The notes under the pieces: generated by a model
Seen by the model: the letters and a program-made list of their open reading frames with translations, nothing else
The model's database searches: none
What the model was told of the DNA's origin: nothing
Shown here: piece by piece, positions 28,275-37,226 of the stretch
Layout of the letters: each line of letters opens with the position of its first letter
Position numbering within the stretch: position 1 is the stretch's first letter
Position numbers and translations under genes: made by a program
Assembly: GCA_946409745.1 (NCBI GenBank)
Contig: CAMJXP010000004.1
Coordinates: forward strand, 1 to 42,266
Source of the DNA: an uncultured Candidatus Saccharibacteria bacterium
Lineage (GTDB): Bacteria > Patescibacteriota > Saccharimonadia > Saccharimonadales > Saccharimonadaceae
DNA length: 42,266 nucleotides
Direction: 5' to 3'

Positions 28275-28724
28275 TTATTTCTTCCCTTTTTGTTCCTTCA
28301 ATATGTTTTCAAAATCTTCGAGAGTTTTAAACTCACGGAAGACGCTGGCGAAACGGACGTAAGCGACTTCGTTGACATCGGCGAGGACATCGAGGACGGC
28401 TTCGCCAATTTGCTTTGAAGTGATTTGCTCGGTGCCATAGGAATAGAGGATGTCGGTAACACGGTTGATGACCTCTTCGATTTCGAGTTCGGAATTGAAG
28501 AATTTGCCAACACTACGCTTAACGGCAAGGAGAAGCTTATCACGATCAAAGATTTCTTTGTTGCCACTACGCTTTAAGACAGTAAGTGGTGGCATTTCAA
28601 TACGCTCGTAAGTAGTAAAACGCCGACCATCCGGCGTTTCACGGCGGCGACGAATCATGGTGCCATCTACCGTTTCTCGACTTTCAAGAACTTTGCTGTC
28701 TCCAATACGGAATTTGTGGTCCAT
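28275..28724 (-). CDS. nrdR: NrdR-family repressor lacking zinc-ribbon cysteines
   Basis: SKVLESRETVDGTMIRRRRETPDGRRFTTYERIE followed by ATP-cone LTVLKRSGNKEIFDRDKLLLAVKRSVGK. Confidence 0.9.
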   Translation of the reverse strand: MDHKFRIGDSKVLESRETVDGTMIRRRRETPDGRRFTTYERIEMPPLTVLKRSGNKEIFDRDKLLLAVKRSVGKFFNSELEIEEVINRVTDILYSYGTEQITSKQIGEAVLDVLADVNEVAYVRFASVFREFKTLEDFENILKEQKGKK

Positions 28725-35217: not shown

Positions 35218-35817
35218 AGACGAAAGCCTCAGCAAAAAAGATTCGATAAGCAGCCAAGGTTCAACCTTGGCTGATTTCATATCTAGATCTAGTTTCGCGA
35301 GTTCTTTTAGAACTCGTTTTTCCTTTGTTCCCTGGTTAAAGCTAAAATCTTTAATGGCCTGCGAAGCGAGGAGGCCGAAAAACATGATTGGATCTTCGTC
35401 TTGTTTAATTTTACTAAGTTGGCTGATGGCTTTTTTGCCGTCTCGTTTGGCGGTTTTATAAATATCAAAAACGAGGCGAAAATTTGGATCTTCGGGGAGT
35501 TCGAACTTGGCGACTTCGACTTTATCTTTGAGTTCTTTGAAAGCGGTAGTGCGGGTGTCGAGTTTAGATTCGAGCAAGATGATGTTATGCGGAGTGTTTA
35601 GGTAATTTGTGAGTTGCTCGAAGGCGGGTTTACTCTGAGCGAGGTCGCGAATTAAGATGTTTCTCGTGTCGGAGAGAAGCGAGGCGCCTAGGAATATGTT
35701 CGGAAGGTCAGTAAGGTCAAGGTTTTCGCCATCGACAACCTCGTAATTCTCGCCGAGGAGGCTTTTAATCTTGGCATTGGCTTTCACGCGGTCGTCGCCG
35801 TAGAAGATTCTAATCAT
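35209..35817 (-). CDS. holA: DNA polymerase III delta subunit-like, compact
   Basis: MIRIFYGDDRVKANAKIKSLLG..., NIFLGASLLSDTRNILIRDLAQ; only about 200 aa. Confidence 0.65.
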   Translation of the reverse strand: MIRIFYGDDRVKANAKIKSLLGENYEVVDGENLDLTDLPNIFLGASLLSDTRNILIRDLAQSKPAFEQLTNYLNTPHNIILLESKLDTRTTAFKELKDKVEVAKFELPEDPNFRLVFDIYKTAKRDGKKAISQLSKIKQDEDPIMFFGLLASQAIKDFSFNQGTKEKRVLKELAKLDLDMKSAKVEPWLLIESFLLRLSSLS

Positions 35818-36658
35818 CTTTCCTCCTCTGGCAGTTTGGACAAATGTGGGTACCACGACCGGCGACACGAATTTTCTCGATCTTGGTGTCGCAAACTAGG
35901 CATGGTTTACCGGTGCGGTTAAAGATTTGAGCGAATTTATCAAGGTAGTCACCTTTGGTGCCGTCGGCTTTGACGTAGTCTTTCATGGTGGAGCCACCGG
36001 AATCGATGGCGGTATCCATAGCTTTAGCGGCCATGTCAAGAAGAGTTGAGGCTTCTTTTTTCGTGAGGGCGCCGGCTTTCGTGGCAGGGTGGATGCCTGA
36101 CATAAACAGACTTTCATCGGCATAAATGTTGCCAAGCCCACAGATAATGGTTTGGTCTAGAATGACGGCCTTAATAGGAGAATTCTTGTGTTTTTGAAGT
36201 TTTTCGTAAAACTCTTCTGGCGTCATTTGCCAAGGTTCTTTAGCGAGTTTTTTGATGAAGGTGTCCTGCTCGACTTTGTTGGTATCAATCACCTTAATGA
36301 AGCCGAATTTACGCTGGTCGTTAAAGAAGAGCGGCTCATAGTCAAATTCAAGGACGACGCGGGTCTGTTTGTTTGGGAGCTCGTCGATGAAATTATCGCT
36401 CGGATGGCCGGCGGCGAAGCGTTCTTTACCATCGTAAATCAGTTGGCCGGTCATACGAAGATGAATCATCAAGGATTTACCGTTATCGAGGTCGATGATG
36501 AGAGCCTTGCCGAAGCGGCGAATGGCTTTTACGGTGCCGGTAACTGGGGTGCCAACAAAAGATTTAGCACACAAAATCGTGGTCTTCGTAAGCTTCTTCT
36601 TAATGATAAACTTACTTAGACCACGTTTGATTGTCTCAACCTCGGGTAGCTCTGGCAT
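35810..36658 (-). CDS. mutM: Formamidopyrimidine-DNA glycosylase
   Basis: MPELPEVETIKRGL N-terminus; GLGNIYADESLF; CLVCDTKIEKIRVAGRGTHICPNCQR zinc finger. Confidence 0.97.
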   Translation of the reverse strand: MPELPEVETIKRGLSKFIIKKKLTKTTILCAKSFVGTPVTGTVKAIRRFGKALIIDLDNGKSLMIHLRMTGQLIYDGKERFAAGHPSDNFIDELPNKQTRVVLEFDYEPLFFNDQRKFGFIKVIDTNKVEQDTFIKKLAKEPWQMTPEEFYEKLQKHKNSPIKAVILDQTIICGLGNIYADESLFMSGIHPATKAGALTKKEASTLLDMAAKAMDTAIDSGGSTMKDYVKADGTKGDYLDKFAQIFNRTGKPCLVCDTKIEKIRVAGRGTHICPNCQRRKDD

Positions 36659-36677
36659 ACCCGTATTATATCACACC

Positions 36678-37115
36678 TCAGTGAGCGTAGGCGATGTTCT
36701 GCTCCATCGCTTGAGTTTCGAGAGCGGCAAGGCGCTCGGCGTCATCGATGGCAGAGTTAACAGAGTGCTTCACACGGGCAGACTCTTCGGCTTTTTTAGC
36801 ATCGTTCCAGCGATCAAGCGTACCGACGAGATAGCCGGTGATGCGGCGAAGGCGTTCAAATTTGCCTTCATCGAAGTATTCGGCGTACTCTTCGAAATAT
36901 TCTTTAGCAGCTGCTTCGCCCTTTTTCTCGGCGATGAGTCTCATGCCAACTTCAACAAGGCAGGAGACGTGCATGGTTTCATATTGTTCGAAATCTTCGA
37001 GTGCAGTAGCGACTTCTTTTTCGCTGACTTTGGCATATCTTTCGAGCGATTTCACGAAACGCTTGATGTCGAAAGTGCAGGCATCATTCGGATTTCGGTA
37101 GATGATTTTCTTCAT
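36678..37115 (-). CDS. Stand-alone protein with class III RNR-like C-terminal glycyl-radical motif
   Basis: FERLRRITGYLVGTLDRWNDAKKAEESARVKHSVN resembles NrdD C-terminus RRxCGYL...RVKH. Confidence 0.55.
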   Translation of the reverse strand: MKKIIYRNPNDACTFDIKRFVKSLERYAKVSEKEVATALEDFEQYETMHVSCLVEVGMRLIAEKKGEAAAKEYFEEYAEYFDEGKFERLRRITGYLVGTLDRWNDAKKAEESARVKHSVNSAIDDAERLAALETQAMEQNIAYAH

Positions 37116-37169
37116 GGTTTTCTTTCTGTCGTTTAGACTTTTAATTTGTTATAAGCATTACCTGAAATC

Positions 37170-37226
37170 CATTATATACACTATATATAGTGGTGTCAAG
37201 GACTTTTTGACACTAAATGTGGAGTT
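37170..37226 (-). promoter_or_regulatory. Consensus promoter overlapped by tandem NrdR-box-like sites
   Basis: Minus: TTGACA-N17-TATAAT; box 1 ACACTATATATAGTGG (37178-37193), weaker box 2 ACACTAAATGTGGAGT (37210-37225), 32 bp apart. Confidence 0.8.

Follow-up and report, generated by a model that had tools for sequence, protein, structure and literature searches.

A separately encoded glycyl-radical loop and a truncated NrdD in Saccharibacteria: a likely two-chain class III ribonucleotide reductase

Why should a gene for a protein of only 145 aa in a saccharibacterial genome be preceded by what look like paired NrdR boxes, and what could its product contribute to ribonucleotide reduction? We addressed these questions in the window, by which we mean the whole stretch of DNA analysed (42,266 nt), in the genome to which it belongs (637 kb in 44 contigs, 78% complete), and in related genomes. 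Close orthologues of the protein occur in bacteria named Candidatus Saccharibacteria, many of them from the ruminant gut and including Candidatus Nanosyncoccus alces; from the names of these relatives we infer that the genome belongs to the Ca. Nanosyncoccus group. Below, the gene is termed the stand-alone gene and its product (P0001) the stand-alone protein.

Operator, promoter and leader of the stand-alone gene

The preliminary description had placed a minus-strand TTGACA-N17-TATAAT promoter at 37170-37226. This agrees with the sequence, and the interval correctly covers the promoter and both boxes (Table 1). Also reproduced were the scores given for the boxes against the consensus acaCwAtATaTwGtgt: 15/16 for the proximal box, CCACTATATATAGTGT, which lies in the spacer, and 12/16 for the distal box, ACTCCACATTTAGTGT. 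The boxes are 32 bp apart from start to start, i.e., separated by a 16-bp spacer. Together they score 27/32; when the whole window was shuffled 200 times with dinucleotides preserved, the best pair scored 20.7 on average and 23 at most. A chance origin of the boxes was thus ruled out, as the pair score was attained in 0/200 shuffles and the 15/16 single site likewise never.

Table 1. Positions of the features discussed (window coordinates, except for nrdG)
Feature	Position	Strand	Basis or remark
NrdR, predicted repressor	28275..28724	-	Zinc-ribbon-like domain (no zinc cysteines) and ATP cone
mutM (Fpg)	35810..36658	-	19 bp downstream of the stand-alone gene
Stand-alone gene (degenerate ATP-cone-like domain and NrdD glycyl-radical loop)	36678..37115	-	Profile matches, predicted fold
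Residues 86-117, glycyl-radical loop FERLRRITGYLVGTLDRWNDAKKAEESARVKH	36765..36860	-	Gly94 corresponds to P. copri NrdD Gly711
Residues 1-84, predicted ATP-cone fold	36864..37115	-	AF2 and fold search
Leader motif GGTAATGCTTA	37152..37162	-	In 54/78 orthologous leaders
-10 element TATAAT	37171..37176	-	Sequence; 17-nt spacer to -35
Proximal NrdR box	37178..37193	-	Inside the -35/-10 spacer; conserved in orthologues
-35 element TTGACA	37194..37199	-	Sequence
Distal NrdR box	37210..37225	-	Upstream of -35; 32 bp from the proximal box
nrdG, radical-SAM activase	L009:7409-7972		Directly after nrdD

The preliminary description had also staked its reading on conservation of the two sites in relatives and on their specificity, and both held. 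Nearly every orthologous locus with a long enough upstream region has tandem boxes 32-33 bp apart before the stand-alone gene, and the promoter, as TTGAC...TANN(A/C)T, recurs in nearly all of 78 orthologous upstream regions. In the window no second pair scores as high. A genome-wide scan with three mismatches, which would miss a pair of two weak boxes, revealed no equally good pair at an unrelated promoter; the one further pair at such spacing (C3:30074/30107) lies upstream of nrdDG. Those single box-like sites that were examined elsewhere in the genome have no comparably scoring partner at 31-34 bp.

Tandem boxes with the 32-33 bp spacing also precede nrdD in 31/31 cases. In our genome the nrdD operator has a 17-bp spacer between its boxes, and the two promoters are differently arranged: at both, the -35/-10 spacer is occupied by one of the boxes, but the second box is found upstream of -35 at the stand-alone gene and downstream of -10 at nrdD. 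Spacers between NrdR boxes are commonly 15-16 bp, and NrdR binds at 14-17 bp (PMC12051234); the 16 bp found here and the 16-17 bp of most orthologues fall in this range. Two 16-bp palindromes, a 16-17 bp spacer and overlap with the promoter are features shared with known NrdR operators (PMC12051234, PMC12176259), from which this one differs in that the predicted NrdR lacks the four zinc ligands and the apparent target is a class III glycyl subunit. These patterns are best read as an NrdR operator, formed by the tandem boxes, that covers the promoter of the stand-alone gene and would be bound by NrdR.

The predicted repressor is itself unusual in having none of the four zinc ligands. The four cysteines are lost in every NrdR copy read from the genus, where MDHKF.. 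and ETPDG replace the CxxC motifs, and the zinc-ribbon profile matches the copies detected no earlier than position 9-10. On the DNA-contact face, the conserved arginines are retained. Other families of the order mostly have a canonical NrdR, often together with a second, divergent one.

The gene order polA, boxes, stand-alone gene, mutM is kept in near orthologues (polA nearby at 69/80 loci and mutM at 79/80), and mutM is possibly co-transcribed with the stand-alone gene. We did not detect this neighbourhood in the checked relatives with full NrdD. The leader contains a recurrent motif, the reverse complement of which sits in the nrdD leader of the same genome. Reverse-complemented, the core of the motif reads GCATTACC, which was found in the nrdD leaders of 9/14 genomes of the clade with split NrdD versus 0/17 others. 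This motif could be a second operator or serve in mRNA-mRNA pairing; a search of the stand-alone leader for known RNA families found none.

The stand-alone protein and the truncated NrdD

That the 145-aa ORF is part of ribonucleotide reduction, as suggested earlier from its operator, is supported by the protein itself. Residues 82-117 match the glycyl-radical end of NrdD, at positions 532-562 of PF13597 (E 2.7e-7, Pfam) and in NCBIfam NF011292 (E 1.8e-12). The region aligned in Prevotella copri NrdD is residues 707-738, with Gly94, Tyr95 and Arg102 of the stand-alone protein opposite Gly711, Tyr712 and Arg719. In the P. copri enzyme Gly711 is the radical glycine, and Tyr712 and Arg719 are tied to the flap and the substrate network (PMC11226230). 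All three residues are invariant across the aligned orthologues (sets A2 and A3). The dN/dS of the gene, only rough since dS is near saturation, is ~0.06 overall and ~0.02 in the loop, indicating strong purifying selection with the loop as the most constrained part. Pfam detected no glycyl domain of the pyruvate formate-lyase (PFL)/GrcA type in 16 members of the family at E up to 10, and among phage proteins the matches were confined to NrdD-type tails that cover 18-30% of the query.

The N-terminal part is predicted to be a degenerate ATP-cone-like domain. The AF2 model of residues 1-84 has a mean pLDDT of 88.6, and its 30 best fold matches in the PDB are all ATP-cone proteins (NrdR, NrdB, NrdD and NrdA), with TM-scores on the query of at most 0.68 and individual Foldseek E-values of 0.02 and above. 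The full-length model gave a similar list, and the predicted fold is closest to the cones of NrdR. Comparison with the ATP cone by hhalign gave weak scores and a first alignment that was out of register, so the assignment relies on the fold search. We use the term degenerate because Pfam found no ATP cone (PF03477) in the sequence and the nucleotide-binding motif is altered (IIYRNPND versus IIKRDG in the NrdD of the same genome). The gene may have arisen from an nrdD duplicate whose central part was deleted. In the AF2 model the free glycyl loop is helical, at lower confidence.

The NrdD of this genome appears to lack exactly what the stand-alone protein carries. Its 731 aa cover positions 2-529 of the 562 in PF13597, the stand-alone protein covering 532-562, and align with residues 5-704 of the P. 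copri chain; the match ends at 529 and the glycyl-radical loop is absent. It retains Cys426, HIHD, NAN, and the KRDG of the ATP cone. More broadly, KRDG, NxN, HxHD and MGC motifs are present in 14/14 truncated NrdDs. In the four-cysteine zinc site that precedes the loop, the first cysteine position reads Asp in the genus (RDPVCG), and CPxCG is kept. We found no catalytic domain of class I/II ribonucleotide reductase (RNR; PF02867) in this 78% complete genome or in 36 congeners that are at least 90% complete; the same search was positive in 11/14 control genomes.

Because the stand-alone protein bears the loop that is missing from the only RNR detected, this RNR appears to consist of two proteins encoded by separate genes. 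The earlier reading was thus right, and beyond it the evidence supports a more specific role, in which the 145-aa protein supplies the radical loop absent from the NrdD chain.

Distribution in the family and competing explanations

We scored 63 NrdD-bearing genomes of the genus. The stand-alone gene accompanies the truncated NrdD in 36/36 genomes; among the 27 with full NrdD, 11 have the gene and 16 do not (one-sided p 3.6e-8, without tree correction). The truncated NrdDs form one clade (support 100/99), so the truncation, which on this phylogeny arose once, counts as a single event, retained thereafter in every case. An outgroup genus of the family (g32) has a full NrdD together with the stand-alone gene and tandem boxes, so the gene is probably older than the truncation.

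We consider it quite likely that the stand-alone protein and the truncated NrdD form a two-chain class III (anaerobic) RNR that evolved from a spare-part ancestor. The main chain would provide the ATP cone, the NxN flap, the catalytic barrel that bears the radical cysteine, and the region of the metal site; the stand-alone protein would provide the glycyl-radical loop in trans. The two chains would have to assemble physically and be activated in trans for catalysis. Specifically, Gly94 would be converted to a radical by the activase NrdG, and the loop, docked or oriented by the N-terminal ATP-cone-like domain, would reach into the barrel of NrdD beside Cys426. At high dATP, NrdR would repress both halves jointly. 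Probably the small protein was at first a spare part for NrdD cleaved by oxygen, as may still be the case in relatives that have the same protein and a full NrdD, and later became obligatory in one clade.

The most serious competitor, which we judge improbable, holds that the protein is merely a repair part like YfiD, that the loop-less NrdD is a degenerate remnant, and that the cells use deoxynucleosides from a host bacterium. Saccharibacteria do depend on hosts, and a spare-part role fits those relatives that have the protein alongside a full NrdD. Also in favour is a near-complete congener, G021 (96% complete), in which NrdR is present, and neither NrdD, nor the stand-alone protein, nor a class I/II RNR was detected. 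A decaying NrdD is hard to reconcile with the end point common to all truncated NrdDs, with the retention of every catalytic motif checked and of intact open frames in the scored genomes, with the NrdR operators kept at both operons, and with the fact that truncated NrdD never occurs without the stand-alone gene.

Still less probable, in our estimation, is that the protein acts as a regulator, its cone-like domain binding the cones of NrdD or NrdR and its glycyl loop serving as a decoy substrate for NrdG. The similarity of the predicted fold to NrdR cones and the NrdR operator at its promoter would suit such a role, which leaves unexplained both the constant co-occurrence with truncated NrdD and the concentration of the strongest constraint in the loop. 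Finally, although the genomes are mostly metagenome assemblies, an artefact in which assembly or gene calling truncated NrdD and chance produced the palindrome is scarcely credible, given the end point shared by 36 genomes of one clade, the stop, start and often ribosome-binding site that separate the two halves in other families, and an operator that was attained in 0/200 shuffles.

Split NrdD in Patescibacteria and its relation to known systems

A two-chain class III enzyme of this kind would have counterparts elsewhere in the phylum. In a sample of 385 Patescibacteria genomes, NrdD was matched in 89, 11 of them in the same family as our genome. In ~37/89 the NrdD falls short of the loop, or has a stop just before it, and the loop is found as a separate or stop-separated ORF. 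Four of these cases are in the genus studied here, and ~33/78 lie outside the family, in ~16 other families; both approximate counts were read from a table rather than scripted, and exclude contig-edge cases and NrdDs with long insertions. We inspected 20 junctions. At nearly all of them a new ORF of 45-90 aa, in most cases with an ATG of its own, comes after the NrdD stop or overlaps it, and some show a clear ribosome-binding site, such as TAAGGAGGTAAAAATG in G337 and AAAGGAGGGTATTATG in G371. At 45-90 aa, these glycyl mini-proteins are too short to contain an ATP cone.

This second kind of split, with the glycyl ORF directly downstream, was seen in G337, G435, G336, G371, G375, G389, G397, G433, G461, G471, G498, G499 and others; the glycyl peptide of the G337 type has 53 aa. 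We discarded sequencing error as its cause, since the in-operon architecture recurs in two genera of one family, one of them with the clear TAAGGAGGTAAAAATG junction. In G571 (C13:80271-82382) a full-length NrdD is directly followed by a 94-aa ORF that matches profile positions 510-562 and could be an in-operon spare part. In seven further genomes (G373, G421, G466, G500, G513, G531 and G570) the NrdD frames are 1000-1560 aa long and match the profile in pieces, suggestive of inteins or large insertions.

We give about even weight to the possibility that many Patescibacteria have a two-subunit class III RNR with a small, exchangeable glycyl subunit, functionally like class I NrdB, that is replaced rather than repaired after oxygen damage, and that the Saccharibacteria subunit adds an ATP cone repurposed for docking control.

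To our knowledge, all class III RNRs studied bear the glycyl radical on the catalytic chain. The closest solved structure is P. copri NrdD (PDB 8p23), and the system described here resembles that NrdD/NrdG pair in its ATP cone, NxN flap, HxHD, radical cysteine loop, glycyl loop sequence, activase gene and NrdR regulation (PMC11226230). It differs in that a separate gene encodes the glycyl loop together with a second ATP-cone-like domain, which is degenerate. YfiD/GrcA and phage T4 Y06I, the spare parts of PFL, are likewise small autonomous carriers of the glycyl-radical C-terminus of a larger enzyme (PMC8683613). Unlike them, the stand-alone protein has an NrdD-type loop, and the NrdD of the clade lacks a loop of its own, so the part would be obligatory. 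The split class II enzyme NrdJa/NrdJb also uses two genes for one RNR catalytic chain, but is cobalamin-dependent, and its separate chain has no glycyl radical (PMC4520616). The split RNRs described in the papers found are of class II (PMC4520616, PMC9669993), a large RNR phylogeny does not mention Patescibacteria or CPR (PMC9531940), and targeted searches of the open-licence literature found no report of a split NrdD.

According to PMC8683613, the only validated glycyl spare parts are YfiD and Y06I of PFL, and for other glycyl enzymes such parts are a matter of speculation; the stand-alone protein is a concrete candidate for one. Genome annotation may call such NrdDs truncated and overlook a partner of 45-150 aa. 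With its parts exchangeable, the naturally separated system would be suited to studies of radical installation, radical transfer and oxygen damage. The probable path from a full enzyme, via a full enzyme with a spare part, to an obligatory split has all of its steps still visible in one bacterial family.
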